This document shows, piece by piece, positions 6,416 to 52,130 of a stretch of 64,000 nt of DNA. The notes under the pieces were generated by a model, which had not been told where the DNA came from, did not search any database, and worked only from the letters and a program-made list of their open reading frames with translations. Both the position numbers and the translations under genes were made by a program. Origin of the DNA: Fimbriimonas ginsengisoli Gsoil 348 (lineage in GTDB: Bacteria > Armatimonadota > Fimbriimonadia > Fimbriimonadales > Fimbriimonadaceae). How positions within the stretch are numbered: the first letter of the stretch is position 1; every line of letters begins with the position of its first letter. The stretch spans positions 124,001-188,000 of the forward strand of contig NZ_CP007139.1 in assembly GCF_000724625.1 (NCBI RefSeq), read 5' to 3'.

Positions 6416-8053
6416 TCATCTCCGATTCTGGTAAATTATCGTGTCTGCCACGCAGGGGTGTAGCTCAGTTGGTAGAGCAGCGGTCTCCAAAACCGCAGGT
6501 CGCGGGTTCGAATCCTGTCGCCCCTGCCATTTCTCGAAATCGGTCTCCAAGGTGGGGTTTTCGATCAATTCGAGGTTCGCCTGTAAGATCAAATTGAATT
6601 CGGGACGCATGGTTAGAATGACCTTCCCGTCAAGGATTTGCGATTTCGAAAGTAGGCTTTTCAGCATCGCGCGCCGGAGCTCGATCGAGGCGGTTTTGAA
6701 CCTAGCGGCGGAGTTCGAAACTAACTCCAACATTTGGACGTTGTCCTCCCACGTCGCTCGGTTCGCACGGCCGTACGCGGCGATCTGCTCGTCGACGGTG
6801 GCGAGCTCCATTTCCCACTTGGCTTTGAGCTTGGGATAAGCGGCGGCGGGCACATTGCCGGCCACGCTGTCGAGATAGAGCCGCTCGAGGGATCCGGCCA
6901 ATCGTTTGGCTTCGGTCCGCAGGTCCGCGAGGCGCGCCTCGCTTTCCGTCTTTACGTCACGGTAGCTGAGCCGGAGCGCTTCCCGTAGCATATCCATCAC
7001 CGTTGGCCGAATGGTGAGCCTCTCCAAATGGGCGGCAATTTGGTCGGTGATGGCGGCTTCGCTCACCGACAGGCGCGGGCAGCCCTTGAACCCCGTGCAG
7101 GAATAGTAAACGTACCGACCGTCCTTTTTGCTTTCGGGCGTCATCGCGCATCCACACCGGCCGCACGTGAAAATTCCGCGATAGGCGTACTCGCGTCGAC
7201 CGAAGCCGGCGCAATTCACCGCCCGGCCGCCAAGAACCTGCTGGACTTTGGCCCACGTTGCCTCGCTGACGAGCGGAACGTGCTTTCCGGGGTATGTAAC
7301 CCCTTTCCACATGATTTCGCCCTTGTACAGCGGATTTTGAAGCATCTGATGCAAAGCACTGACCGCGACGCGCGCGCCCTTGCGACTCCTGAGCCCGATC
7401 GCCTGAGCGACAACCGCCGCAGTCTTAATGCTATGGTCGCCGGTCGCATAGGCTTCGAAAAACGCCGTTACCTGCTTTGCGGACATCGGGTCCGGCTCGA
7501 TGGTTCGCACGGCGCCGACCGAGACGTTTCGGTAGCCCAGCGGAGCGCTTGATGGCCAGATGCCCTGCGCCGCCTTTTCCCTCATTCCTTTACGAGCTTC
7601 TTCACTGAGGTTGTCGCTGAAGTTCTTGGCGACTACGGTCCGGATGTCATGGACGAACTTCTGATAGGCGGGCGAATCTTTGTGAAGAATCTCGCGCTCA
7701 GTGGCGAGGTGGAGTTGTAAACCGTCCTCGATAAGGTCGCCGATCGTGACCCGATCCCGGAAATTTCTGTACATGCGGTCGGTCTTTTCAGCAACCAAGT
7801 GCCGAATCTCACCGCCAGAAAGAGCCTTGACCATCTCGCGAAACTCGCGCCGGCCAGCTTTCCGCGCGGTCTCATCTTCGACGAACACCGCCTCGGTCTC
7901 AAAATCTCTTTCCGCTACGTAGGCGCGAAGGGCGCGGAGCTGGGCGTCGAGCGAGTATCCCTTCGCCTGATCTTCGCTTGACACCCGGCAATAAATAACG
8001 CAGCGTTCGCGCTCAAGCGGCTTTGCGATCGTCGATTTTCTCGGTCTGGGCAT
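6416..8053 (-). CDS. Large serine recombinase (integrase), C-terminus altered by integration
   Basis: 545 aa from the ATG at 8053 (an AGGA lies 8 bp upstream; a GTG at 8086 is possible but has no ribosome-binding site). Resolvase domain at about 17-155 with the catalytic serine in YCRVSSEDQ (residue 25), then the recombinase domain (about 170-280), a zinc ribbon (CGRCGCAM ... CTGFKGC) and a coiled-coil tail. It catalyses site-specific phage integration and excision. In the integrated state, residues 512-545 are the antisense translation of host tRNA-Trp (RQDSNPRPAV...). In the circular phage the frame would instead continue through the attR-side bases 52044-52005 and end VAETFRMLAQAA, giving 523 aa. 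It is the last gene of the leftward early operon and overlaps the preceding gene. Confidence 0.93.
   Translation of the reverse strand: MPRPRKSTIAKPLERERCVIYCRVSSEDQAKGYSLDAQLRALRAYVAERDFETEAVFVEDETARKAGRREFREMVKALSGGEIRHLVAEKTDRMYRNFRDRVTIGDLIEDGLQLHLATEREILHKDSPAYQKFVHDIRTVVAKNFSDNLSEEARKGMREKAAQGIWPSSAPLGYRNVSVGAVRTIEPDPMSAKQVTAFFEAYATGDHSIKTAAVVAQAIGLRSRKGARVAVSALHQMLQNPLYKGEIMWKGVTYPGKHVPLVSEATWAKVQQVLGGRAVNCAGFGRREYAYRGIFTCGRCGCAMTPESKKDGRYVYYSCTGFKGCPRLSVSEAAITDQIAAHLERLTIRPTVMDMLREALRLSYRDVKTESEARLADLRTEAKRLAGSLERLYLDSVAGNVPAAAYPKLKAKWEMELATVDEQIAAYGRANRATWEDNVQMLELVSNSAARFKTASIELRRAMLKSLLSKSQILDGKVILTMRPEFNLILQANLELIENPTLETDFEKWQGRQDSNPRPAVLETAALPTELHPCVADTIIYQNRR
6454..6529 (+). tRNA. 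tRNA-Trp (anticodon CCA)
   Basis: A full cloverleaf can be drawn. The acceptor AGGGGTG pairs with CGCCCCT (one G-U), the discriminator is G, and CCA is encoded. The D arm is GCTC...GAGC, the anticodon stem GCGGT/ACCGC surrounds CT-CCA-AA, and the T loop is GGTTCGAATCC. The CCA anticodon reads UGG, giving Trp. The 3' end is the prophage attachment site. The recombinase frame of the prophage runs antisense through the whole tRNA. Confidence 0.97.
6522..6541. repeat. attL core
   Basis: The 20 bases starting CCCTGCCATTTCTC are identical to 52045-52064. After one mismatch the next five bases (GTCTC) also match. The core comprises the last eight bases of the encoded tRNA end plus 12 bases beyond. 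Read on the minus strand it is also codons of the recombinase gene (DFEKWQG), in frame at both ends of the prophage. Confidence 0.92.
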
Positions 8054-10437: not shown

Positions 10438-10922
10438 GGAACCTCCGCGGAGATGGGCTCCATGTACGCATGAACGGTTGATGCGCCGCGATGGCGGAAG
10501 GCGTCAAGCCAAGTCAAGAGATCGTCGACGGAAAGGCACACGTCTTCCGCCATCGCGTACATCAACTCCGGTTCTTGGGGCTCCTCCATGAGCACGAACA
10601 GCAACTTCCCCGCCCCGGCCGCGAATCCGGCTTCAAGATGAGCAGAGCGCCCGCTCGGCAACAGCAATACGCACGCGTCGCATTGCTCTAATGCGTTCAT
10701 ATCCAGAGAAAACCCGGCTTCAGCGACTGGATTTTTGAGACAATCGCGGTAAGTGGCCGGGTCCCAACCCTTCCACTCCGGATCGACTGCCGACCATTGG
10801 AAGCCGGTGTTACCCGGCTCCGGATTCCGAAAATCGTAAACGAGATGCCCCGCTTCGCGAAGAGCATTAAGCACCCTCGGTTGATGAGGGTTGCGCCACG
10901 ATGATGCTAGGTAAATTTTCAT
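10434..10922 (-). CDS. Nucleoside 2-deoxyribosyltransferase-like protein
   Basis: 162 aa. The N-terminal Rossmann strand KIYLASSWRN, a middle LEQCDACVLLLPSG and the nucleophile-region motif GRSAHLEAGFAAGAGK match the family pattern, in which a Glu attacks the sugar. Family members exchange bases on deoxynucleosides or hydrolyse nucleosides. In phages they serve nucleotide salvage or base modification. The substrate here is unknown. Confidence 0.75.
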   Translation of the reverse strand: MKIYLASSWRNPHQPRVLNALREAGHLVYDFRNPEPGNTGFQWSAVDPEWKGWDPATYRDCLKNPVAEAGFSLDMNALEQCDACVLLLPSGRSAHLEAGFAAGAGKLLFVLMEEPQEPELMYAMAEDVCLSVDDLLTWLDAFRHRGASTVHAYMEPISAEVP

Positions 10923-10945
10923 GGTAGTTCGGTTAGAGGGCCTTG

Positions 10946-13342
10946 CTAAGCAAGCGCCGAAGCATTGCGCTTGACGGCAACCGCTTCGGGTTTAGGGACG
11001 CCGCAGAATTCCCGTACGCGATCGTTAACGATCAGGTCGTCGGCATTAAGGCCACGGCGAAGGTAGAGCCCCGCCAGCGTGCGTACACGGCTAAGGGCAA
11101 CGTAGAGCTGTCCATGAGCGAACGCCTTCATTTCGAGCTCTAGGAGCGCCGAATCGAGCGTTTGACCTTGGGCTTTGTGGGTTGTGATCGCCCACGCCAA
11201 TTTAAGCGGCACCTGGGAGAATGAGCCGGCTACCTCTTCGGTGATCTTCTCTCCCTCTTTCAGGTCGATCGCGTAGCGGATCTTCTTCCACTCAAGCGGC
11301 GTGGCCACGATCTCATTGCCGTTACGAAGCTTGATGCGAGGGCCATTCCGCTCGAAGCCAACGACCTCGCCCACCGTGCCGTTGCTAACCTGAACGCCCC
11401 ACTCATCGACGGTGTTGCGAGCGAACATCACCTGAGCGCCGATCTTGAGAGTGATCTCATTGTCGACCGGCATATCCCGCTCGTCGAACTCGCCGCCGAT
11501 CGCCGCCGTGTAGACCTTCGATTCCGTCGTAAGGCTTGCCAAGCGACTCCTGTTGATCGCCGCCGCTTTCGCGTTGCCGAACGTGAGAACGACCGGCTCT
11601 TCCCCCAAAGGGGCTTGGATGCCAACACGCTGGTTGAGAAACGCAAGACCCGATGGATCGCCGATCCGAATCGCGTTGAGCGCGGTGATCAGATCCGGAT
11701 CGCCGATTTGGCGGAACACCTGCGTGAGCTCACAGGTCTCGATCGAGATGCCTTCCGATGGCGCTTCGCCAAGCTCGCCTTGCGCGGGCAGCGCCCGGAA
11801 AACCTCCGCGTCGAACCAGAATGGAGAGCCGAACTTCTTCTCGATCCATTCCCTTTCGTCTTCTTTAACCACGGGCTCGAGCTGCCACATATCGCCGATC
11901 GCGACAACCGTCTTGCCACCGAAAGGCAGCTTGTTTCGAAGCGACTTTTGGAGGCAAACATTGATGGCGTCGAGCACGTCGGCGCGAACCATCGAGATCT
12001 CATCCAAGACGATCAGATCGGCTGCCGCAGCGATTTCGGGGTGCCGCATGGCGTTGACCTTGTTTCGCGACTGAGGGCCGATCTTGAGCCCAAAGAGCCG
12101 GTGAATGGTCATGCCGCCGACGTTGACGGCCGCGAGCCCGGTCGGCGCCGCGACGAGGCATCGAGCGCGATCGCGGATCTTCTTGAGAACCGTCGATTTA
12201 CCCGTGCCCGCCTTACCGGTCACGAAGATGAAGCGACCCTGCTTTTCCTTGGCGGCTTCCATGATCAAGTCGATCGCGCGCTGCTGATCTTCCGAGAGCA
12301 CGATCTCCGGCTCGCGGTTGACCGGCGTGACGTCGAACTCGTCGCTGGTGTCGATTTGCGGTCCGCGCTCCTTGAAGCGGTTCGCGATTTCGTCGGCGAG
12401 GGCTTTGGTAGCGGGAGTAAGTCCGCTAGCGAGCTCGGCATCGAGATCGGCGGCGCTTCGCAAAATCGCCTCTTCGATTTGCCGGCCGGCTTCCTCCGGA
12501 GTGGCGCCGTTCGGGCTTGGCTCCGATGCCGGCTTCGGCTCAAGGCCCATCTCCGCCACAACCCGCGCGATTTCAGCGCTTACGGCATTCGTGGCGGGGT
12601 CCTGGGGGCGGATCGCGTTAGCAAGTTCGGCCACGTTTTCAGGGCGCGCCTGTTCAAGCCACGAGAGAACGATATGGGCGTCGGCCTTGCTTAGATCGCG
12701 CGTGCTGGAAACCTCATCAATCACCGCGGCTGTCGGTAGGTCGCCATACTCGCTGAGGATCGCGAAGCAAGCCGCGTGCCGCCTAGCACCGCCGAATCCG
12801 ATCGATGTAAGGCCGGCGTTTAGGGCGGTGAGCTGGCCGGCGCCACCGTTCACCCCGATCTCCGTGATCGCCTCGTAGTTCCATTCCTCAGGCGGGTAAG
12901 GAATGAAGATCCCGAACGCTTCCGCGCCATCTACGCGGAGATCTTCCTCACGCGGAATTGCGGCAACTACCGGCGCTGTCGGAGCCGGATCGATGGGCGC
13001 GAGATTAGGCGTTGCGGGAGGTTCCTTGGGAAGGTCGTCGATCGTCTCTTCGCGGTCATCGTCCTCTTCGTCGATGTCGAGCTCACCGTTCAGCGGCTCG
13101 TCGGCCAGCGCGTCGACGTTAACGAAAAGCGGCCGCGGCGGGCGGGTCATGTTCCGGGCGCGATCTTCGGCCTCGGCGAGGATCAAAGCGAGGCCGGTGG
13201 TGGCTCGCCCCATCATGCTCGTGATAAGGCTGTCGCTCGCCGTGGCCGGGATCCGCGAAAGGTTGATCGTGATTCGAGCGACCTGGCCATCCGGGAGGCG
13301 GAACGGCCGCTCGACGCCAACATGGATCTGGGGTTCTTCCAT
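10946..13342 (-). CDS. PIF1/RecD-like SF1 helicase with long N-terminal extension
   Basis: 798 aa. Residues 1-about 350 are an acidic, low-complexity extension of unknown role. The helicase starts about 360: Walker A GKAGTGKST, motif Ia APTGLAAVNVGG, Walker B LIVLDEISMV, then GDMWQLEPV. The C-terminal 2B region has TTHKAQGQTLDSALLEL and YVALSRVRTLAGLYL, hallmarks of the PIF1 family (5'-3' DNA helicase). Probably used in phage replication or recombination with the Gam-like protein. Its ATG shares one base with the preceding stop (TGATG). Confidence 0.9.
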   Translation of the reverse strand: MEEPQIHVGVERPFRLPDGQVARITINLSRIPATASDSLITSMMGRATTGLALILAEAEDRARNMTRPPRPLFVNVDALADEPLNGELDIDEEDDDREETIDDLPKEPPATPNLAPIDPAPTAPVVAAIPREEDLRVDGAEAFGIFIPYPPEEWNYEAITEIGVNGGAGQLTALNAGLTSIGFGGARRHAACFAILSEYGDLPTAAVIDEVSSTRDLSKADAHIVLSWLEQARPENVAELANAIRPQDPATNAVSAEIARVVAEMGLEPKPASEPSPNGATPEEAGRQIEEAILRSAADLDAELASGLTPATKALADEIANRFKERGPQIDTSDEFDVTPVNREPEIVLSEDQQRAIDLIMEAAKEKQGRFIFVTGKAGTGKSTVLKKIRDRARCLVAAPTGLAAVNVGGMTIHRLFGLKIGPQSRNKVNAMRHPEIAAAADLIVLDEISMVRADVLDAINVCLQKSLRNKLPFGGKTVVAIGDMWQLEPVVKEDEREWIEKKFGSPFWFDAEVFRALPAQGELGEAPSEGISIETCELTQVFRQIGDPDLITALNAIRIGDPSGLAFLNQRVGIQAPLGEEPVVLTFGNAKAAAINRSRLASLTTESKVYTAAIGGEFDERDMPVDNEITLKIGAQVMFARNTVDEWGVQVSNGTVGEVVGFERNGPRIKLRNGNEIVATPLEWKKIRYAIDLKEGEKITEEVAGSFSQVPLKLAWAITTHKAQGQTLDSALLELEMKAFAHGQLYVALSRVRTLAGLYLRRGLNADDLIVNDRVREFCGVPKPEAVAVKRNASALA

Positions 13343-14190
13343 CAGGAGTTCACCCCGGTCGTGACCGTGACCTTTTCCGATGGCGGCTTAACCTCGAATC
13401 CACCGGGCGCGACTTCGCCTTTCCGCACCGCTTCGGTCAGCGCCGCCTTTTGCTCCGCGGTGAGCTTCGAGATTTGGAACTCTTCGCTCGTCTTGACCGC
13501 GTTCGTGAAGCCAAGCTTCTTGGCGATCTCGAGCGCGGTCGCCTCGCCCTTTTTGACCACGGCAAGTCCGCCCGCGTTAGCCACGAGCGAAATCGATCCG
13601 AGCAGCGTTTTGAATGTCTTGGACTTCTTGCCCTTGAGTTCGTTGCGCGCGTACTCGCCGAGCTCGGCATCGAAGCGAAGGTGCAGCCAATTGAGGCGGC
13701 CTAAGCGATCCCGCTTCATTCGCTCGGCGTTTGTAAGCACCGCGCGGGCGTGAATCACCAGCGCCGAATTGTCGATCGCCGCAACTTCGGCTTCCGCTTG
13801 AAGCATCTTGCCAAGAACCCAGTTCGCCGAGTCGGCGTCGGTCACCGCGAATTTGGGCGCCATATCGACCATGCCGACCACCTCGCCCGTCTCGACGTCG
13901 ACGATGTAATCGCCGTGGATCTCGGTTTCGCGCGGCACCTCGGATTCCGGAGCGACTTCGCCCTTGAGTTCGGCGATCGCGCCGGCGAGGTGGTCGGCAG
14001 TCTCTTGGTTGATAGGAGTGGCGGATTGGGGCATGGCGGGTTCCTGGGGTTTAGGGAGCTCGATCTCCCGGTAGTCGGGGCCAAGAACCGCGCCGTCGCG
14101 GGTGCGGCGATAATGCCGACCCTTGGCGGTGATTCCTAGCTCAAGAAGCTCGGCGGGTTCGATGACCGAATACGGCATGATCATCGTCAT
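13342..14190 (-). CDS. Gam-like host-nuclease inhibitor (tentative)
   Basis: 282 aa. A variable N-terminus (1-120) precedes a helical pair and the segment LRFDAELGEYARNELKGKKSK then TFKTLLGSISLVANAGGLAVV. This resembles the Mu Gam-like pattern, where a helical hairpin precedes a K-rich turn and a G-x-I strand. Gam proteins coat DNA ends and block RecBCD-type nucleases. The match is by eye and moderate; the alternative is an unrelated recombination accessory. It sits directly upstream of the helicase. Confidence 0.45.
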   Translation of the reverse strand: MTMIMPYSVIEPAELLELGITAKGRHYRRTRDGAVLGPDYREIELPKPQEPAMPQSATPINQETADHLAGAIAELKGEVAPESEVPRETEIHGDYIVDVETGEVVGMVDMAPKFAVTDADSANWVLGKMLQAEAEVAAIDNSALVIHARAVLTNAERMKRDRLGRLNWLHLRFDAELGEYARNELKGKKSKTFKTLLGSISLVANAGGLAVVKKGEATALEIAKKLGFTNAVKTSEEFQISKLTAEQKAALTEAVRKGEVAPGGFEVKPPSEKVTVTTGVNS

Positions 14191-38332: not shown

Positions 38333-38374
38333 CCAAAGAGAGCCTCTCGGCAATTGCCGAGAGGCTCTCTTTGG
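38333..38374. terminator. 42-bp perfect palindrome ending the moron
   Basis: Bases 38333-38353 are exactly complementary to 38354-38374 (CCAAAGAGAGCCTCTCGGCA and mirror). An RNA copy would form a 19-21-bp stem followed by TTTGCG. It ends the moron transcript. The tape-measure gene starts 16 bp later, so late transcription must pass through it. Confidence 0.7.
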
Positions 38375-38389
38375 TTTGCGTGTGCTGCC

Positions 38390-40198
38390 ATGAATCCAAT
38401 CACCCTAAAAGTCAAAGAAGAGGGGCTTGACGAGTCTCTTGGAAAGGTGCTTGAGCTTGCCGACGCCCTTGAAACGGGCTACGGCGCTCAAATGGAACTT
38501 AACAAGCAGATGCGCGCCGGCGGGAATGCCGCGCGTGAGCTCGCCCGTGGGGTCGACGTCGCGCATCGGTCGTTGCAGCGGATGTACTCGGCGATTCCCG
38601 ATAAGCCGCTCGTTTTGGAGGCGCGAGGGGTAGGGCAGCTCGCCCGCGACGCCGGGTCGCTGGGGGTCGCGCTCCGGAGCCATAGCGGCGCGGCGCTGGC
38701 GGCAACCAAGCGAACCGACGCCTTGGCGGCGGCTACCGATCGAGTCATGCTTAGCGTGCAAAAAGCGGTTCCCGCGCTCGCGGTCCTGACCCAGCAATAC
38801 CAAACGATCGCGGCGGCTTCCCAGCAAGTGAAGCCGATCCCGCTTTCGCGCGCAATGACGGCCGGCGTCGGGCCGGGTCAGCGCCAAAAAGCGGCCGCGC
38901 AATCGGTGGGCATTAAAGCGCCCCCAAAGTATTACGTCCCTCAAGGGCCGTGGGCGCGGCAACAGAAAGCCATGCAGGGGCTCCAAAACGCTTATGCGAC
39001 CGGCAATCCGATCGCGATCGCGGACGCTCATCACAACTACCTTCAGGCGCGCGCCGCAGCTCAAAAAGCCGCAAACTTCGGACAGCCGAAGTCGTTCGGC
39101 TCGCAACTCGCAAACGCGATCGGAACCTCCCGGATCGGCCTTGGTGGTGGGGGCGGCGGAGTGCAACTCATGCCGTTGGTGAACAAGATCCTTCCCCTTG
39201 CTGAGAGCCTAATGGGCGCGGAAGCGGCCGCACTCGCCGGGCCGGTTGGTGTCGCTGCCGCCGCCGTAACTGGCCTTGCTTCGGCGGCCAAGATGGCCGA
39301 AGAGCGCTTAACCCTGATCGGGAATCTGACCGCAGGAAGCACGTCGGCACACGCCACGAGCGCTCTTGTTGCGGCTCAGATTGCGGGAATTGACCCCAGT
39401 CGAATCGGCGCTCAGGATAACGGTATTCATAGCCCCGGCTCCGACTGGTATTGGGCTCAGCGTGCCGGCGTATCTCCCTATCGAAATGGCTATGGGCAAG
39501 GAAACTTTGATGATGCAGCGAATTTCATCAAGGAATTGAAGTTCGTTCTAAGTTCACAGATTTCCGACAGAGAAGCTAAGGCGGCTAGCCAAGCCTTTGG
39601 GATGCAGGATTTGCTCTACATGCGCAACGCTTCTCCTGGCCTTCGAAACGAAATGATGCGTCGGATTGATGGCGCGGAGAAGACTGATCCCGCTGCACTT
39701 AGGGCGGGCGCCGACGCTCAAATCAAGTTCAACATGGGCCTGATGGATACTCAGAAATTATTGACCGACTTGGGGACTTCCATCATGCCGGGCGTTGATA
39801 CGATCTTAGATCAGTTCAATAAGAACCTCAGGGAAGGTAAACCCGCCATTCAAGAATTTTCGAATGAGATCGCTAAATTAGTTGTAATGCTAGTTGACTA
39901 TGTTAAATACATTGACGACTTAACGCATGGCCGATTCGGAGACGCAGGGAAAGATTTAAAGAAGCTGTGGGAAGATCTTAGGACAAGCCCCGCGGATATG
40001 GTCCGAGACCACCAGAGAGACGCGACCCGCGAAAACACCCGTGCCACGAGAGAAAACACCGAAGCTATTCGAAACGGCACCTACGGCGGCGGAGATCGAA
40101 CCCGCCAATCTCGCGCCTACGGCGGTCAATCAAGGGATAGTTGGGATCAAGCCGAACAGGCGGTGCGCCAAGACGCCATTCGATTCGGAAGCCTGTAG
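38390..40198 (+). CDS. Tape-measure protein
   Basis: 602 aa from the ATG at 38390; the frame reaching back to 38354 lies in the palindrome. Long helical protein with an Ala/Gln-rich coiled first half, a hydrophobic segment (ALAGPVGVAAAAVTGLASAA, about 285-305) and a C-terminal part with the repeat-like DATRENTRATRENTEAIRN. It sets tail length and is the scaffold for tail tube assembly. Tails scaled by this length would be short to medium. No ribosome-binding site is evident. Confidence 0.7.
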   Translation: MNPITLKVKEEGLDESLGKVLELADALETGYGAQMELNKQMRAGGNAARELARGVDVAHRSLQRMYSAIPDKPLVLEARGVGQLARDAGSLGVALRSHSGAALAATKRTDALAAATDRVMLSVQKAVPALAVLTQQYQTIAAASQQVKPIPLSRAMTAGVGPGQRQKAAAQSVGIKAPPKYYVPQGPWARQQKAMQGLQNAYATGNPIAIADAHHNYLQARAAAQKAANFGQPKSFGSQLANAIGTSRIGLGGGGGGVQLMPLVNKILPLAESLMGAEAAALAGPVGVAAAAVTGLASAAKMAEERLTLIGNLTAGSTSAHATSALVAAQIAGIDPSRIGAQDNGIHSPGSDWYWAQRAGVSPYRNGYGQGNFDDAANFIKELKFVLSSQISDREAKAASQAFGMQDLLYMRNASPGLRNEMMRRIDGAEKTDPAALRAGADAQIKFNMGLMDTQKLLTDLGTSIMPGVDTILDQFNKNLREGKPAIQEFSNEIAKLVVMLVDYVKYIDDLTHGRFGDAGKDLKKLWEDLRTSPADMVRDHQRDATRENTRATRENTEAIRNGTYGGGDRTRQSRAYGGQSRDSWDQAEQAVRQDAIRFGSL

Positions 40199-40201
40199 AC
40201 A

Positions 40202-42994
40202 ATGTTATTTCCCACCGGAATCAGCTCGGCGATCGGGCTTCACCCCCCTACGCCTGGCCATCGAGCCGTCCTCAAGTTCGACACGCCTTGCCGCGTGCTA
40301 ACTGAGTCGCCATTCTCGCTGACTCGAAAGGCGGAAAACATGGGGCGCGGCTCTAACGCCCATTGGAAGGGCACCCGGTACGTTCAGGGCATCGGGATTC
40401 AGCTCACGCCGCTCGCCCATCAAATCGGCAACGCTCACGAGCAGACCGACGCGACGGATCCGATGCTCAGCACGGACGACGGTGGCGATCTGCAGATGGC
40501 GGCGGGGATGGCGGGAGAATACGGCTACCGGTCTCCGGAAACGGATCAACCGGGATCGACCACCGGCGGAAGCGTCGCCGCGAACTCGATGCTGATGTAC
40601 GCCAAAGGGGTCGATGCGGCCGATAATTACGATAACGCCGCTTACCGGCTCGACGCCGATCAGACCGCATTTCCCGGGCCGACCGTGCTCACCGACACGT
40701 TGGTTATGGACCGCGTTGCGGTGGGGCAGAACCCGCACAACGAAAAGGCACTAACCTTCACCCTTGAAACCGGTGGACCGGGAGCCAAGGCGTCGGCGAA
40801 GCTCTCGGAACGGTTTTTCTCCGGGCCAGCATCGGAAACGCAAGGGTTCACCGGCTACGGCAATTATTGCCTCGATCTGATGGGCGATGGCCAGCTGCAG
40901 CTTTGGGAAAAGGGCAAGTTCGCCGGCGAGCGGATTGGGTGGCGGAGTTGTCTCATTGGCCGATGGTGCGAGCCGAATCGAGCGTTTGGGACGACGGTAA
41001 CGATCGACGTCAATATCCACCGGTATTCGCGCCCCATCAACGGCAAATCCGGCGCGATCGTGGTTACGTGCGCGGAGAGTGGCAGTGCGCCGGCCGCGAC
41101 GGGGATCTTCATGGCGGTTGGCGCAACCTCCCTTCCGCAAACGCTCACGCTGAAGTATTTCGTTCCGATGCGGCAGGCGACGCCCCCGCCGACGATGCCC
41201 CAGCCGGTCCGTTGGAGCGATCGACGGGACTTGGCGCCTCGCTCTCACGCGTCTACCCCGCGGTATCCGGCAACCGGCTACGTCGACGATGATCCGTTCG
41301 GCTTTGGGAGCATGATCGGCGTCGTTCCAGGCGTCGTGCTGGTTTACGTGAGCTGGTCGGGCGACGTTCCTTCCGGCACGTCGGTTGAGGTGGATCTCAT
41401 GGACGCCGGCGGGGATCCGGATTCCCCTTCATTCTACACGCCGGTGAGCTCGGGCACGATCGCTGGGGTTGGCGGATGGCGAGCCTACGATCCGGCTGAC
41501 CTCGCGCTCTATGGCGTGGAAAGCGGGTCACAAACCGGAGCGTTCCAGGTTAGAACGACTTTGAACGGCACGGCGAGCTCAACGCCCACGGTGTATGCGG
41601 AAGGGATCACCAAACGCGGGATCACTACCGTAACTACACCCGGCGAATGGGAAGCTCAGCTCAAGCTTTTGGAGTGGTCCGCGCCTGGCGCGGCAGCCGA
41701 TCCAACGACGGAATCAGCATCGTTCCGGATCGAGGACGAGACGGTTTCGCTGCCGCTGCTTCGCAACCGGTCGACGATCGCTTACTCGCTCGAGTACGAA
41801 TACCCCGGCGTCGACTGGACTGATCCGTCAAATGCCTGGAAGCGCTCGATCCTTTCCCGTGGGTACACCACCTCGATCGTTCAGACTCAAAAAGGAAGCG
41901 ATCATCCTACCGTCGACGCCAATGGCGATCCCTATGTAGACCCTCGGCATGACTACCCGAGTCCCGATTGGCGCGGATTCCAAATTGAAGCGGCGGGCGA
42001 ATGGCAGCGCGCTAAGTCCGTCCTCGCGCCTTACCTGCACGATTTCTCGGTTAGTTGGGAAAACAGTACTGACACGCCTACGGGCGACCCAGAGAAGGCC
42101 ACTACGGCGCTCAAGCGGATTGCGGGTTGGCTTGGTTTTACCGATCGCCAGATCGATATTCCCGACCTGCCCATCCGGCTTTGGGCGGGGAGTGAGGGGT
42201 TCATTGTCACACCGGGGCAGGACATTCTTGAGCTCGGCAATCGCATTGCTCGCGACTACCTGCTCGGATGGCTTTACTACGATTGGAATTCAGCGACACC
42301 CGACATGGGAGGCGATCCGGCCAATTGGGATGTGATGATCCGGTTCGGTCAACCTCCGTCGACCATCACAAACCTCGCCTATTTCGACAAGCGACCGATG
42401 GCGAGTGCGCTCACTGGTCTCATCTTCGGCGGCCACGCGCTGAACGATTTTGTTCCGGGCGTTGGGCCGAGCGGCGAAACGATGGTCGGCGCGCCGATCT
42501 ATAAGCTTTGGCGCGAAGAGCGCATCCCGCCGGAGTTTAACAAGCTCGTCGTTCAGGGAACAGCGCCGGGCGAAACCGGGCAGAATTCGCACGGTCAAGC
42601 GACGATCCGTCAGACCGTTTACAACTTCCGAAGCTACAATTTTCATCCGGGCGTGCCGACGGCGGATATCACGAGCCCCGACTGGCTCCCCTATCCGAAA
42701 GAAGCAAAAATCATCGATCCGACAATTTCAACGGGTCGGGCTATTGGATTCATCGCCCATCACGCGATGAACTACGCCGGCACGGGGCGCATTCGCCGCG
42801 CCTGGGTCGCCCCGATGGTTTCGGTGACGGATCCGAATGATCCGTTCCAGAAGCGCCCGCGGCGGCTTCGCTATTACGATCCGGTGATGCTTTTGGGCGA
42901 GCAATATTTCATCCGGAGCTGCACGCCGTACAGTCGAAAGGATGGCGTGATCCTCGCTCGCTACGAAGCAGAAAAGCAGGTGGTACCCATATGA
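40202..42994 (+). CDS. Tail tip/baseplate structural protein
   Basis: 930 aa. Large, Gly/Asp/Trp-rich and beta-rich, following the tape measure. Segments such as AVLKFDTPCRVLTESPFSL, DILELGNRIARDYLLGWLYYDW and RPRRLRYYDPVMLLGEQYFIRS resemble the hub/late-domain style of tail tip proteins. I recognise no enzymatic motif. Alternative: distal tail protein fusion. Confidence 0.5.
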   Translation: MLFPTGISSAIGLHPPTPGHRAVLKFDTPCRVLTESPFSLTRKAENMGRGSNAHWKGTRYVQGIGIQLTPLAHQIGNAHEQTDATDPMLSTDDGGDLQMAAGMAGEYGYRSPETDQPGSTTGGSVAANSMLMYAKGVDAADNYDNAAYRLDADQTAFPGPTVLTDTLVMDRVAVGQNPHNEKALTFTLETGGPGAKASAKLSERFFSGPASETQGFTGYGNYCLDLMGDGQLQLWEKGKFAGERIGWRSCLIGRWCEPNRAFGTTVTIDVNIHRYSRPINGKSGAIVVTCAESGSAPAATGIFMAVGATSLPQTLTLKYFVPMRQATPPPTMPQPVRWSDRRDLAPRSHASTPRYPATGYVDDDPFGFGSMIGVVPGVVLVYVSWSGDVPSGTSVEVDLMDAGGDPDSPSFYTPVSSGTIAGVGGWRAYDPADLALYGVESGSQTGAFQVRTTLNGTASSTPTVYAEGITKRGITTVTTPGEWEAQLKLLEWSAPGAAADPTTESASFRIEDETVSLPLLRNRSTIAYSLEYEYPGVDWTDPSNAWKRSILSRGYTTSIVQTQKGSDHPTVDANGDPYVDPRHDYPSPDWRGFQIEAAGEWQRAKSVLAPYLHDFSVSWENSTDTPTGDPEKATTALKRIAGWLGFTDRQIDIPDLPIRLWAGSEGFIVTPGQDILELGNRIARDYLLGWLYYDWNSATPDMGGDPANWDVMIRFGQPPSTITNLAYFDKRPMASALTGLIFGGHALNDFVPGVGPSGETMVGAPIYKLWREERIPPEFNKLVVQGTAPGETGQNSHGQATIRQTVYNFRSYNFHPGVPTADITSPDWLPYPKEAKIIDPTISTGRAIGFIAHHAMNYAGTGRIRRAWVAPMVSVTDPNDPFQKRPRRLRYYDPVMLLGEQYFIRSCTPYSRKDGVILARYEAEKQVVPI

Positions 42995-43254
42995 GCCGGG
43001 CTACGGCTTCGATGATTGAGTTGCGCCGGCGCGTGATGGAAGTTTTCACCGCCCGGCAGCTCGGGACCCTTCCGAGGTCGCCGCGGGGGCTCGTCTCCCA
43101 GCAACGGGCAATTGCGCACCACGGGGAGATTCACGGCTTGCCGGAGGTCCATGTCCCGGCGATTCAGGATCTTGATCCCGCATCGCCGACCTTTGGCGCT
43201 TTCTTTTTCTTGCTCGACGCCTCAGAGTTTGACGGCGGCGACATTCTCGGTTGA
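42991..43254 (+). CDS. Small hypothetical tail-region protein
   Basis: 87 aa, overlapping the previous stop by 4 bp. Helical start (MIELRRRVMEVFTARQLGTL), then VHVPAIQDLDPASPTFGAFFFLLDASEF. Not recognised. Likely part of the tail-tip operon. Confidence 0.55.
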   Translation: MSRATASMIELRRRVMEVFTARQLGTLPRSPRGLVSQQRAIAHHGEIHGLPEVHVPAIQDLDPASPTFGAFFFLLDASEFDGGDILG

Positions 43255-43255
43255 T

Positions 43256-43444
43256 ATGACCGCTCGAAGCATCAAGATCGACGCCGGCGGCGAGGGAGCT
43301 GAGCTCACGATCGTCGTTACCGGCTCAGAATGTCGTTGCGAAGATCTGCAGATGTTCATCGCCGCTAAGGTTCGCGAGTTTCTCGCTAGACCAAAGACCA
43401 CCGGGTCAGCGCCGCGCCCGTGCGGCTGCAAGGAAAATCAGTAA
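43256..43444 (+). CDS. Small CxC-motif protein
   Basis: 62 aa from the ATG at 43256. A beta-strand pair (KIDAGGEGAELTIVVTGSE) is followed by CRCEDLQMFIAAKVREFLA and a terminal CGCKENQ. The two CxC pairs could bind a metal or form disulfides. It ends directly at the GTG of the next gene. Function unknown. Confidence 0.55.
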   Translation: MTARSIKIDAGGEGAELTIVVTGSECRCEDLQMFIAAKVREFLARPKTTGSAPRPCGCKENQ

Positions 43445-46400
43445 GTGCCGATTAACGGGACCTTGCTTCCGGCGACGATCAACGCGCTCGAATTTGCTTG
43501 CCATTCGAGCGGGACGCCAAGCGGTTCCGGTCCAGGTCAGCCGACCTACAGCCATCAGGCAACTCACGACACGTTTTTTGCCCCTAACGCAATCGATTTA
43601 AGCCTCGGACTCTATTTGCATGCTGAGAGCAGCTACGACGGTTCTGCGGGCACGTGGCAAGCCGTTTACGATGGACCTGGCGCGCCGTTCGGTGGATATG
43701 TCCTCAGCGGTTCGGGATTCCAGTCGTCGGTAAAGATTGCGGCCCGGCCGAAGTCGGTGAAGCTATATGGCACGTCCGGAGGGCTCACTTATATCTCGTG
43801 GTCGGAAATCGAGATTTGGCTTAACGACGCGCTGAACATTACATTGCCTAGCTCGGGGATCGCCTCCCTGGGGAACGGTTGCGGGCCGAACTACACGCTG
43901 ATGATCGGAATCCCGAGTTATCTAACTGGCAGTGCTGGCGCCGGCCGGATTGGCGTCGTTTATCCCGCCTATGACAACTGCGACCCTGGCCATGGCCTTC
44001 CGATCTCTTGGTCGACGTCCATCGGATCGACTGCGGCCGGGGGATGGCGGTTTCAGGAGATCGACGGCGGCGCTTGGACCGATCTGCCGGTCGCGCTGTA
44101 TCATGCGACCCCTCCCGCGGGCGGCGACTGCCCATTCGGCCTAGGGTTGGGGACGGTGTCCGGAGGGAGCACGTCAGCCGGCTCGATCGACACGAGCTCG
44201 AGCGTTTCCTCTGACCGTGAGTATGTGACGAGAGAGCTCTTGACCGGCGTCTCAACGGCAACGTGCTACGACAATGACGAAGCAGGAACGGTTCTCGGGA
44301 CCGTGACGACTCACCCGCGCGTTACGTTTCGAGACCCTTGTACAGGCGAAATTGTCGACGCTTACCGGGATGTCTATTCAACGGAAAGCTGGTCGGAGCA
44401 TGCGGGCGGTTCGGTGTGGCTGTATCCCAACCTCGCTACGGCTATCCGCCGGTTCTCCCCCGGCTACCGATGCGCTTGGTACCGGGGGACGCTCCCCGAA
44501 ACGACGGCATCGGCGTCGCGGAGCTGCACGAGCGGCGGCGTCACGGTAACGACCAATTCGAGCACCGTCGTCCATCCGGCCGTGTCCTACATCGCTTCGG
44601 TGGTTGGAAGCGGCGCCCATCCGATCGAAGACGTTTTCACCTACACGGCTTATTCGCCGACGACGGAATCTCGAAGCAAGCATCACAGCAAGACGTTCGA
44701 TTTCGCCGGTCCGGAGGACGTGACCTGCGATCCTCAAGCCGACATCGATTGTCCTACCGGAAACAAAGGGTTTTCGTGCGGCGCCACTGCACCCGATCAC
44801 CCCGAAATTAACGACAGCGAAACCGTGTCCGGCAGGTTCCCGGCAACGGTCGGCCCGATCCCAGGCAATTACCAGTGGCACTACGTCGACGTCGCGCGGT
44901 ATCTCGCGACCTGGCCCAATCGACTATGGCAGTTCGCAAATTGGCGCGAAGATTGGAAGGTCGACGGCTCGCCGGTCGCCTGGCCGCTCTATTGGGGGCT
45001 GAACGGCGAGCAGTGGCTCTACAATCCCGCGTTTCCCGTTTCCGAGCAGCGGCGCACTCGAAACAGCCAGCTAACGAGTTGCTTGGAGCAATCGGGCTAT
45101 ACGCCCTTTCTTGACGCCTTCTTTGGCGGTTTACGGTGGATCGGTGTTTCGCGGTGGCAGACGATGGGGATCGACCCTCCCGACCATCTCGATTTGACGG
45201 CCGCTGGCGCCGATGCTTGGACGATCGAGCACGCGACGCCGACGTACACGAGCACGGGGATCACCCTTGATTCTCCGGACGCGACGACGTTAATCCTCAC
45301 GCTCGACACTACGCGTTGGGACGTGCCACCGCACCTTTATCCAGCCATCTGCGATCGCATTCGTCTAAGTTGGTCTCTTGGTAACGTCGCCCAAGTCCGG
45401 GTCTATTGCGTCGCCGAGGATGGCTCGCTTGCTTTGCTCGAGCAGACCCACGGCGACGGGTTCACCACGTCCGGAGTCACCTACCGGATCCCGGCGATAC
45501 CGCAAAGCAAATCGGCGGGAAGCTGGGCGATCGATAACGGGGATGGCGTCGTCACCGACACCGGGACCGATGTTGGCGGGTCGGGAATTTCGCCTGCCAC
45601 TATGGCCGATCCAATACGAGCGTTCCGCTTCGGGCTGCTTGGCGGCCGTACCGTCAAAGCGCTTCGGTTTGAAGTGGACCTAGTAAGTATGTCGACGGGC
45701 GCCGTCGTGAATTACCCTAGGTGGATTTACGCCGGCGCCCATCCGACACCGATAAACGAAAGCCGTCAAATTGTCGATCTCATCTGGCCGAACGGCCCTG
45801 GCGTCCGCCTGGGGAATCATGAGTGGTGGGACGGCTCGACGCTGCTTAGCGTCCCAAATTGCTTAGGGCTCGGATACACAACCACCGTCATCGATGCGCT
45901 TTGCGCGAAGCGGGAAATCTTCTTTGGCGTCGATCGGATGGCTACCTATCCGGGCGGGGTCGATCTCACTACGGAGCTCGTGCAGCGATACGATGCTTTC
46001 GAAGGGGAGAGCGTTGGGCAGGTCGATCAAAATTCGCTTGCCTTCTTGCTCCCCAAGGGGACGGGCGAGACGATGCGTTGGGCGATCGTCAACACCATGT
46101 CGGAGTTGCCGCCCTTCGCGTGTTGGCCTCGAAAGCGGCGGGACCCCCTGACCTGGGCGGAAACCGGCTCCTATTGCCTCGAGGTTTGGGACATGGCGCA
46201 AGAGGACCGGTTCATCGTCTCCGAGGCGCAAACCGAGCTTTACAGCGATACCGGCGTGCGATTTACGTCGCCGTGGCCAGCGCCGGCCGGTTGGGCGATC
46301 ACCCGGTTCGCTCCCAAGCTCGACAATACCGAGACGGGTTGGCAAGTGCGCCGCGGCGGAACCGTCCTAGCGCACGTGCGTCCTTGGCACGGCTGGTTTT

Positions 46401-47044
46401 GTTTGAAGGGGGTTCCGGGCGATCGGGCGCCCTGGCACTACCAGCATAACGACGGTTCGGTCTATCAATGCTCTGTCGATCGGGACGGCAACCTTTGGGC
46501 GCGATACGCTCGCCACTGGTGGCCCAACGGCGGCTGGATTAACGAACAGAACGTGACCACCACGGGCGACGTCGACGACGGCTGCATTTGGGCGAGTCGC
46601 CTCATTAGCCGCGCCGAGGTGGCGTTCTCTCGCGAGATCACCCCGACTCGATACGACCTTTACACCTCCTATTCGAAGGATCGGGCCAAATCATGGACCG
46701 AACCGGTGCTGCTTATGAGTAATGCTCGCTACCCCCGCGGCTTTCCGTCCCAGGATGGGGGAGAGATCCTCGCCTGGATCGTCTTCGATTCGGGCGCAAG
46801 CGGTCCGGCGACCGTTTACGGCCGCTATCGAGGGCGGGGAGGGAGTTGGAGTGCCCCCGCGCCCTTTAAGGACGCCAGCGGGGCGGATATCCGTGTTTCC
46901 GATGCCACCGGATGGGGGAACCCGGCCGGATCATACACCGCTCATCGCGCGCTCTCTCTCCACCTCGTGATCGAGGGAGAAGTGAGCGCATCTTGGTGGG
47001 AATGCACCAAGCCGTCAACCCTGAAATTCAGGCGAATTCTCTAA
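43445..47044 (+). CDS. Large tail protein with Asp-box (sialidase-like) C-terminus
   Basis: 1199 aa, GTG start directly after the preceding stop. Beta-rich and unusually Cys-rich for a tail protein (for example DVTCDPQADIDCPTGNKGFSC). The C-terminal about 250 residues have Asp-box style blades: SKDRAKSWTEPVLL, RDGNLWARYARHWW, YGRYRGRGGSWSAP. Such propellers bind or cleave glycans, so a receptor-binding or host-surface-degrading role is likely. No catalytic triad identified. Confidence 0.55.
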   Translation: MPINGTLLPATINALEFACHSSGTPSGSGPGQPTYSHQATHDTFFAPNAIDLSLGLYLHAESSYDGSAGTWQAVYDGPGAPFGGYVLSGSGFQSSVKIAARPKSVKLYGTSGGLTYISWSEIEIWLNDALNITLPSSGIASLGNGCGPNYTLMIGIPSYLTGSAGAGRIGVVYPAYDNCDPGHGLPISWSTSIGSTAAGGWRFQEIDGGAWTDLPVALYHATPPAGGDCPFGLGLGTVSGGSTSAGSIDTSSSVSSDREYVTRELLTGVSTATCYDNDEAGTVLGTVTTHPRVTFRDPCTGEIVDAYRDVYSTESWSEHAGGSVWLYPNLATAIRRFSPGYRCAWYRGTLPETTASASRSCTSGGVTVTTNSSTVVHPAVSYIASVVGSGAHPIEDVFTYTAYSPTTESRSKHHSKTFDFAGPEDVTCDPQADIDCPTGNKGFSCGATAPDHPEINDSETVSGRFPATVGPIPGNYQWHYVDVARYLATWPNRLWQFANWREDWKVDGSPVAWPLYWGLNGEQWLYNPAFPVSEQRRTRNSQLTSCLEQSGYTPFLDAFFGGLRWIGVSRWQTMGIDPPDHLDLTAAGADAWTIEHATPTYTSTGITLDSPDATTLILTLDTTRWDVPPHLYPAICDRIRLSWSLGNVAQVRVYCVAEDGSLALLEQTHGDGFTTSGVTYRIPAIPQSKSAGSWAIDNGDGVVTDTGTDVGGSGISPATMADPIRAFRFGLLGGRTVKALRFEVDLVSMSTGAVVNYPRWIYAGAHPTPINESRQIVDLIWPNGPGVRLGNHEWWDGSTLLSVPNCLGLGYTTTVIDALCAKREIFFGVDRMATYPGGVDLTTELVQRYDAFEGESVGQVDQNSLAFLLPKGTGETMRWAIVNTMSELPPFACWPRKRRDPLTWAETGSYCLEVWDMAQEDRFIVSEAQTELYSDTGVRFTSPWPAPAGWAITRFAPKLDNTETGWQVRRGGTVLAHVRPWHGWFCLKGVPGDRAPWHYQHNDGSVYQCSVDRDGNLWARYARHWWPNGGWINEQNVTTTGDVDDGCIWASRLISRAEVAFSREITPTRYDLYTSYSKDRAKSWTEPVLLMSNARYPRGFPSQDGGEILAWIVFDSGASGPATVYGRYRGRGGSWSAPAPFKDASGADIRVSDATGWGNPAGSYTAHRALSLHLVIEGEVSASWWECTKPSTLKFRRIL

Positions 47045-47048
47045 CGCT

Positions 47049-48005
47049 ATGCCTGCCACCACCTATCTACTTCGGGCCGATCAGGTCCCGAGCCCCCTCG
47101 CCATGCCCGCCGGTTTCGATCGGACTGCCGCCACGACGCTCAGCTTCCCCCCTGGCACCGCTTACGCTCAAATGCCGTGGGCGATCAACGGCCGGTTAAG
47201 CGCGGAGCATATGAACCGCCTGCTCGTCGATCTCGCGAACTACGGGATGTACGGCGGCAACGGATTCGGAATATTCGACGGATTCAATGTCGCTGCGGGG
47301 GCCGGGCTCGATGTCACGGTCAGCGCCGGCCACGGCATGGGGCCTGGCCCGATCTATCTGCCCGACACCGCGCACGGCAGCTTGCCCAACAATACGACGG
47401 TCTACCTGTGGCTCGTTCTCGCGCCGGGCGCCTTCCCAGATAGCGCGATCGTCAGCCATGGGACCAACCCAGCCGCTCCACCAGCCGGAACCATTTTCCA
47501 CCTGGCCACCCTCACGACGGCCGGCGGAATTGTGACCGCGATCGACGGCTCCGGAGTGCCCTATTTGCGAGGCGGGTTCGTAGTGCGGACGACGTTCGAT
47601 CGCGGTGCTCCGCTCGACACGCCCCCGGTTCCAATTCGAACGATCACCCAGGCTGGCATGTACGACTGGCATGCCGGAGCGCATCGCCCCCTCGGCAATC
47701 CGGTATTCCAGGGTTCGTTTGGCGCGCACGTGCAGCTCGTTGCCGCCGACGCCCCCACTCAAGTCCTTACCCCCACTGGTGCCGGGCTGCACGTCAGCTT
47801 GCCCGTTTCGCCCATCTACGGAACGCCCCCGCTCGTGATCGTCAACGGCGCGCCAACGGGAGGGAATAGTTTTGATCTCAAGGTGGGATCGACCGTTGTT
47901 GCGACCCTTGCGCCCGGCATGTCGGCCGGGCCGATCGTCACTGTGCCCGACACTACGGGCCACGCCGCCTATTCGAGTTCGACTATCACCCCGAACTCCT
48001 TCTAG
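47049..48005 (+). CDS. Tail fibre/appendage protein
   Basis: 318 aa, Gly/Ala/Pro/Thr-rich. An N-terminal attachment-like segment (MPWAINGRLSAEHMNRLLVDLANYG) is followed by a strand-rich shaft (VTVSAGHGMGPGPIYLPDTAHG) and a terminal domain. Composition and position after the large tail protein suggest a fibre. Assignment by style only. Confidence 0.45.
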   Translation: MPATTYLLRADQVPSPLAMPAGFDRTAATTLSFPPGTAYAQMPWAINGRLSAEHMNRLLVDLANYGMYGGNGFGIFDGFNVAAGAGLDVTVSAGHGMGPGPIYLPDTAHGSLPNNTTVYLWLVLAPGAFPDSAIVSHGTNPAAPPAGTIFHLATLTTAGGIVTAIDGSGVPYLRGGFVVRTTFDRGAPLDTPPVPIRTITQAGMYDWHAGAHRPLGNPVFQGSFGAHVQLVAADAPTQVLTPTGAGLHVSLPVSPIYGTPPLVIVNGAPTGGNSFDLKVGSTVVATLAPGMSAGPIVTVPDTTGHAAYSSSTITPNSF

Positions 48006-48024
48006 CGACCCCTCGGAGAATCCC

Positions 48025-48789
48025 ATGAACAAACCTTTCGCTCTGGTTTTGGGCGGGCTGCTCGCGCTTTCCAGCGCCTTCGGCTCGTCTTTCGCTCACC
48101 CTCACGTGACCCTTACCCACGCGCGTACGCGTCACCCGGCCCGCCTTTCGACACCAGTGCCGGAAACGACCGAGAACTCAACCACCTCGCTAAGCGCTTG
48201 GAAGAGGCTTTTTAGCGGCGGAGTCACCACGGCACGGACGGGAGTCGCTATCCGAAATAAATCGGCCGGCAACATCTACCTGCGAGTCGCGATCGTTCCT
48301 AGAGGGGGCGCAGCTCCGTCCGCGGTCTCGCCCGACGACGATACGCAATACGTGGTTTATGCCGGCGACACCCTTCCGCTTGGAGCGGTCGGCGACGGGA
48401 AGGCCGACATTTATCTTCGTGCTTCCGACGATACGGCCGTCGCGTATCGCGCCTGGGAGTTCGTTGGGTTGTCGGACTCCGCGCACAACGGAGGATCGAC
48501 CACGGTCACGATTCGAAACACCACCTCGGCGCCCGTCTCGACGTCCGACGCTCCGCTCTCCACCCTGTTTGTTTACAACACCGATCACACCATCGCGTAC
48601 ATGGCAGAAGCCGATCCCGCGCTCGTCGCGGCGGCTGAGATTGCCTCGCCCGGCAGCTCGGTAAATGCCGCGATTTGGCGCGTGACCAAGTTCGTCTACT
48701 CGAGCGGAGACCTGCTCCGCACCCAAAAAGCCGGAACGGGAACGTTCACGTTCGTTCAGGCGAATTACGCTTCCCTCACCTACTACTAA
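48025..48789 (+). CDS. Phage-encoded secreted protein (signal peptide)
   Basis: 254 aa from the ATG at 48025, with GGAGA 9 bp upstream. It opens with a clear signal peptide (MNKPFALVLGGLLALSSAFGSSFA, cleavage about residue 24). Then comes a His/Thr/Arg-rich linker and beta-rich repeats (VAIRNKSAGNIYLRVAIVPRGG, TTVTIRNTTSAPVSTSDAPL). Likely exported to periplasm or cell surface. It is the last gene before a strong terminator. Virion part or host-surface modifier are both possible. Confidence 0.65.
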   Translation: MNKPFALVLGGLLALSSAFGSSFAHPHVTLTHARTRHPARLSTPVPETTENSTTSLSAWKRLFSGGVTTARTGVAIRNKSAGNIYLRVAIVPRGGAAPSAVSPDDDTQYVVYAGDTLPLGAVGDGKADIYLRASDDTAVAYRAWEFVGLSDSAHNGGSTTVTIRNTTSAPVSTSDAPLSTLFVYNTDHTIAYMAEADPALVAAAEIASPGSSVNAAIWRVTKFVYSSGDLLRTQKAGTGTFTFVQANYASLTYY

Positions 48790-48801
48790 GGACCGCCAAC
48801 T

Positions 48802-52004: not shown

Positions 52005-52064
52005 TCAAGCAGCCTGAGCGAGCATCCGGAATGTTTCCGCTACGCCCTGCCATTTCTCGAAATC
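52005..52064 (-). pseudogene. Separated 3' end of the recombinase gene (attR side)
   Basis: On the minus strand the att core reads DFEKWQG in the same frame as at attL. It continues VAETFRMLAQAA to a TGA at 52007-52005. On excision these codons would rejoin bases 6542-8053 to rebuild the phage form of the recombinase. In the lysogen they have no promoter or start. The gap 51950-52004 holds nothing else. Confidence 0.8.
52045..52064. repeat. attR core
   Basis: Identical to 6522-6541; the next base differs and GTCTC then matches again (52066-52070). It marks the right edge of the prophage. Confidence 0.92.
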
Positions 52065-52130
52065 CGTCTCAATGTCCGGATTTCGACGAGCGTCAGATTC
52101 GTCTAAGCGATTTTCGAAAGCCTCGACGTA
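52065..52130 (-). pseudogene. Relic of a related recombinase 3' end in host DNA
   Basis: Beyond attR the minus-strand frame leading into the core reads AFENRLDESDARRNPDIETD. The phage gene has LELIENPTLETD in the same place. NP-x-(L/I)-ETDFEKWQG is kept while third codon positions differ (ACC/ACG, CCC/CCG), a sign of diverged coding sequence. I infer an older related element once used this tRNA site. Only about 13 residues align well. Confidence 0.5.

Follow-up and report, generated by a model that had tools for sequence, protein, structure and literature searches.

The window analyzed here is a 64,000-nucleotide stretch of the complete 5.23-Mb genome of Fimbriimonas ginsengisoli Gsoil 348 (NZ_CP007139.1, positions 124,001 to 188,000). 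It contains a prophage bounded by a tRNA-Trp gene and a 20-bp repeat, with the following features at its two ends.

6416 to 8053, minus strand: large serine recombinase gene as read in the lysogen (545 aa, antisense-tRNA tail)
6454 to 6529, plus strand: tRNA-Trp (CCA anticodon), the integration target, found with ARAGORN
6522 to 6541: left copy of the 20-bp repeat (attL core), of which 6522 to 6529 is the tRNA 3' end including CCA
6507 to 6512: TTCGAA of the tRNA T-loop, the attB half-site motif, 18 to 23 nt from the antisense CCA
52045 to 52064: right copy of the 20-bp repeat (attR core)
52005 to 52043, minus strand: orphaned phage-form C-terminal tail VAETFRMLAQAA-stop, which would be fused to the recombinase in the circle
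52025 to 52030: TCCGGA, at the offset where the attP of relatives carries T[CA]GAAC, only a loose match
52065 to 52082, minus strand: probable stub of the 3' end of an older related integrase (NPDIET, in frame with DFEKWQG)

The recombinase has the Resolvase N-terminal, Recombinase and zinc-ribbon domains of a large serine recombinase (PF00239, 1.2e-24; PF07508, 2.3e-12; PF13408, 2.3e-9). The first-pass annotation described an attP inside this gene, such that integration rewrites the C-terminus of the enzyme, and we confirm this observation, including the repeat, the frames and the lengths. The sequence CCCTGCCATTTCTCGAAATC occurs exactly at 6522 to 6541 and 52045 to 52064 (chance about 6e-8 for a given 20-mer in 64 kb), and there is no third exact copy of its GCCATTTCTCGAAATC part in the complete genome. 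In the lysogen, the frame from the ATG at 8053 crosses the repeat and runs antisense through tRNA-Trp to a stop at 6416, ending in the 34 residues RQDSNPRPAV...YQNRR. At the right copy the same frame runs 12 codons to VAETFRMLAQAA-stop, and joining the two phage halves gives 523 aa, so that the circle would encode a 523-aa protein with a predicted junction of ...DFEKWQGVAETFRMLAQAA. The other best tRNA-like hits of the genome that were typed are Thr, Asn, Pro, Met and Lys, which is consistent with a single tRNA-Trp, although not every hit was typed. That mRNA antisense to this tRNA is made, as the first-pass annotation also stated, is inferred from the open reading frame only.

Only the first 8 bp of the repeat, CCCTGCCA, belong to the tRNA, and part of the 20-bp identity is probably not recombination core. 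The chromosome to the right of attR encodes NPDIET in frame with DFEKWQG, matching NPTLET of the present integrase (tblastn), while the tRNA-Trp loci of congeners (18 fetched, one cut 4 nt after the tRNA) have unrelated DNA after the CCA. The stub of an earlier related integrase is the simplest explanation, but the evidence is modest, because 7 of the 13 matching residues lie inside the repeat. The homologue L021 (we number homologues with L and genomes or contigs with G) shows the same arrangement at its attR (position 31585 of the int-sense string), where PENEKPVD lies next to WWRLVDALRT, suggesting repeated integration of related elements at the same tRNA. The G030:C8 region (L071 to L073) contains two attP-like half-sites in tandem, 66 bp apart (positions 44984 and 45050 of the int-sense string), next to a tRNA-Ala element, probably from serial integrations.

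We searched relatives for attP within the recombinase gene, as the first-pass annotation had proposed, and found that the arrangement is not restricted to the window. Thirty-two of 151 genomes searched (own genome included) hold a homologue. In 19 fetched relatives besides the window the gene runs into an antisense tRNA found by ARAGORN (Gln, Ala, Glu, Asn, Asp and Cys, making seven isotypes with Trp in the window), and two more show the antisense-tRNA peptide. A Trp codon from the CCA end is invariant in 19 aligned sequences. Searches of viral and bacterial collections extended the architecture to Pseudomonadota, Planctomycetota, Melainabacteria, Zixiibacteriota and others; a search of viral contigs with a single protein failed, but a search with the alignment worked. 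In a clade of Gastranaerophilales type the frame relative to the tRNA differs (NGG instead of W), so the register is fixed per lineage and not universally.

Copies that are not next to a tRNA carry another tail. L115 (phage) and L113 (integrated) are 87% identical and diverge only after the core, and the same holds for L114 and L116. Five phage-form contigs have terminal repeats of 107 to 127 bp, as expected of circular assemblies. In genome G151 the integrated enzyme stops at FLKKSGE and, 37.3 kb away, attR holds NGGDNCSMLELFINGLTSYIDDDFCSLLKLVA (ending LLKLVA), 87.5% identical to the tail of the circular 37,296-bp phage L111. Three further prophages hold orphan tails at attR, one ending LIA, found by the DNA motif alone, and two ending KKCA, found with a tail profile and homologous to the tail of L115, hence not independent of it. 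A chromosomal integrase of Mesorhizobium sp. B2-3-4 (L363) carries a phage-type (attP) tail instead of a tRNA tail, as expected of a tandem or non-integrated element. An exact-repeat search (12 bp or more) for attR in 16 relatives gave almost nothing, because the shared core is short, whereas an anchored search and a motif rule worked; a genome-wide motif scan of 16 genomes was too noisy to be used directly.

In integrated copies, TCGAAC of the T-loop lies 15 or 18 nt after the TGG core (60/67), while in phage forms T[CA]GAAC lies 20 or 23 nt after it (23/28), and the two classes do not overlap. This is the 5-bp displacement of the zinc-ribbon-domain motif between attP and attB reported for LI integrase (PMC3783163). 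It identifies attP independently of the reading frames and shows that the first eight or nine tail codons double as an attP half-site. In the window, TCCGGA stands at the expected place and fits only loosely, and no better attR was found in the window. Folding of the att sites was no better than that of shuffled sequences, ruling out a special stem-loop.

Is the phage tail functional? Beyond the half-site, the pooled pN/pS for five phage pairs is 0.29 (95% bootstrap interval, 0.19 to 0.44) with normal synonymous divergence, so that in the gut clade a DNA-only reason for tail conservation can be rejected. Phage-form proteins end in Ala in 23/28 cases (LVA, LAA, KAA, KCA, LCA and the like), compared with 3/68 integrated forms and 6.8% of background open reading frames of the same contigs. 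Counted by tail cluster, the numbers are 13/17 versus 1/36 (p=3.6e-8), although clusters of the gut clade share ancestry and are not fully independent. Host ssrA tags end similarly, in LAA, KAA or FAA. The tree places most Ala tails in one well-supported clade of 23, mostly gut phages of Gastranaerophilales type, in which the phage-form tail nearly always ends in Ala, with the window, L026 and L118 outside it; L341 is labelled as not Ala in this tree only because its tail, KLIA, was not known beforehand. One of the few phage-form tails that does not end in Ala is that of L122, whose phage contig (G173) carries two adjacent serine recombinase genes at 10678 to 13672. However, a universal Ala degron can be rejected. 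The circle tails of the nearer relatives of the window (TSVSS in its neighbor L006, ALRTR, HVPPR, ERLAC and LRTCP) and of tRNA-Ala-class relatives do not end in Ala, and alphaproteobacterial-type elements carry a conserved tail of 34 to 36 aa without Ala. Hence, a degron is likely for the gut clade and only possible for the window, whose tail ends in the degron-like LAQAA; endings like its AA occur in about 2% of background phage open reading frames.

We favor, with fair confidence, the following explanation. The attachment site is embedded in the last codons of a large serine recombinase gene and strand exchange happens at the CCA end of a tRNA gene, so each integration cuts off the phage-encoded tail, leaves it orphaned at attR and fuses the enzyme to whatever the antisense tRNA encodes, and excision restores the phage tail. 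The sequences themselves demonstrate the frames, the sites, the 5-bp motif shift, the orphan tails at attR and the recurrence across phyla. In contrast, we infer from sequence alone that in the Gastranaerophilales-type clade the phage tail is a ClpXP-type (ssrA-like) degron, which would make the unintegrated enzyme short-lived and the enzyme of the lysogen stable, restraining integration during lytic growth and leaving a stable enzyme ready for RDF-driven excision. In the window the same swap occurs (phage tail ...LAQAA, lysogen tail ...YQNRR), but an effect on stability is only suggested. AlphaFold2 places the folded domains of the window enzyme before the core and predicts residues 505 to 545 of the integrated form to be disordered (pLDDT under 50), so the catalytic core should be unaffected. 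The interpretation of the first-pass annotation, a built-in switch between integration and excision states, is only partly supported: its analogy to integration-dependent repressors was apt in view of the conserved, Ala-terminated, ssrA-like tails in one clade of relatives, but control of integration versus excision by the swap is unsupported or unproven for the window. There, the catalytic and DNA-binding domains are untouched, the circle tails of near relatives are not degron-like, and serine integrases already take their direction from site pairing and an RDF. The antisense reading of tRNA-Trp is a by-product of gene orientation shared by relatives at other tRNAs.

Other explanations appear less likely, although different lineages may differ. 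The attP might sit in the 3' tip of int merely because this keeps enzyme and site together as one compact module, with a tail that has no role and whose replacement is neutral. Integrated tails are indeed arbitrary in length and sequence (from 3 to 34 residues), the integrated tail of the window enzyme is predicted to be disordered, and several circle tails barely extend beyond the attP half-site, for example WWRLVDALRTR and WWRLVDALRTCP. This view is difficult to reconcile with the purifying selection and the excess of terminal Ala in the gut clade and with the conservation of alphaproteobacterial tails over 34 to 36 aa; we consider it unlikely overall but likely right for some lineages. It is similarly unlikely, but not excluded, that the phage tail acts in recombination rather than in turnover, helping attP x attB synapsis or blocking the RDF, so that its loss would lock the integrated state. 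Tails are conserved even where no degron is seen (WLGFLEAFRTFWVAPQPELRVLIG... in alphaproteobacteria), and gut-clade tails are predicted to be helical (residues 495 to 509 and 511 to 523 of L115). However, the conserved Ala terminus is better explained by proteolysis, and tails differ strongly between clades while the enzyme body is conserved.

For the window alone, the repeat at 52045 could belong to an older, partly deleted element, in which case the 523-aa form would never exist. The integrase stub on the chromosomal side, the absence of a clean T[CA]GAAC at the expected offset and the contribution of two homologous integrase ends to the 20-bp identity would agree with this. We nevertheless consider it improbable, because the complete genome has no other copy of the core, the frame closes into a short tail as in relatives, and the 45.5-kb interval holds phage replication and head genes, followed by a strong terminator about 440 bp before the site. 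Four large late genes of this prophage (38354 to 51543; 614, 930, 1199 and 913 aa) match no PHROG family.

The logic resembles that of integration-dependent immunity in mycobacteriophage BPs and its relatives, where attP also lies inside a coding gene, the viral repressor carries 33 extra C-terminal residues with an ssrA-like tag, and integration removes them and leaves a 3' remnant at attR (PMC4557955, PMC9934374). In BPs the gene is the repressor and a separate integrase gene has its own C-terminal proteolysis signal, whereas here attP is inside the serine integrase gene itself and the new tail is antisense tRNA. The archaeal suicidal integrases of SSV1, pTN3 and pT26-2 also have their target within their own gene and in tRNA, but they are tyrosine recombinases split into inactive halves and are described as exclusive to archaea (PMC8371274), while the bacterial serine recombinase loses only a tail and keeps all domains, which lie upstream of the core. 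Large serine integrases with LI/A118-type att sites share the domain order (Resolvase, Recombinase, zinc ribbon with coiled coil) and, for the family although only loosely for the window, the 5-bp motif shift (PMC3783163); here, attP lies inside the 3' coding end and the attB half-site is a tRNA acceptor and T-arm. Literature searches on the location of attP and on degron tails found no paper describing attP inside a bacterial serine integrase gene, which is not proof of absence because most subscription journals were outside the library searched.

The rule that T[CA]GAAC lies 5 bp further out in attP, together with the orphan tail at attR, delimits attP, attB and prophage ends in a large family of serine integrases, and it warns that integrase C-termini annotated from prophages can be tRNA-derived rather than native. 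It is about as likely as not that a class of bacterial phages uses integration itself as a protein-stability switch on the integrase, trading an ssrA-like degron for an antisense-tRNA tail, which would be an independent invention of the logic known from mycobacteriophage repressors. If so, the enzyme would report its own integration state through its C-terminus, linking recombination to proteolysis without a separate regulator, and this would give a directly testable account of how some temperate phages bias the choice between lytic and lysogenic growth.
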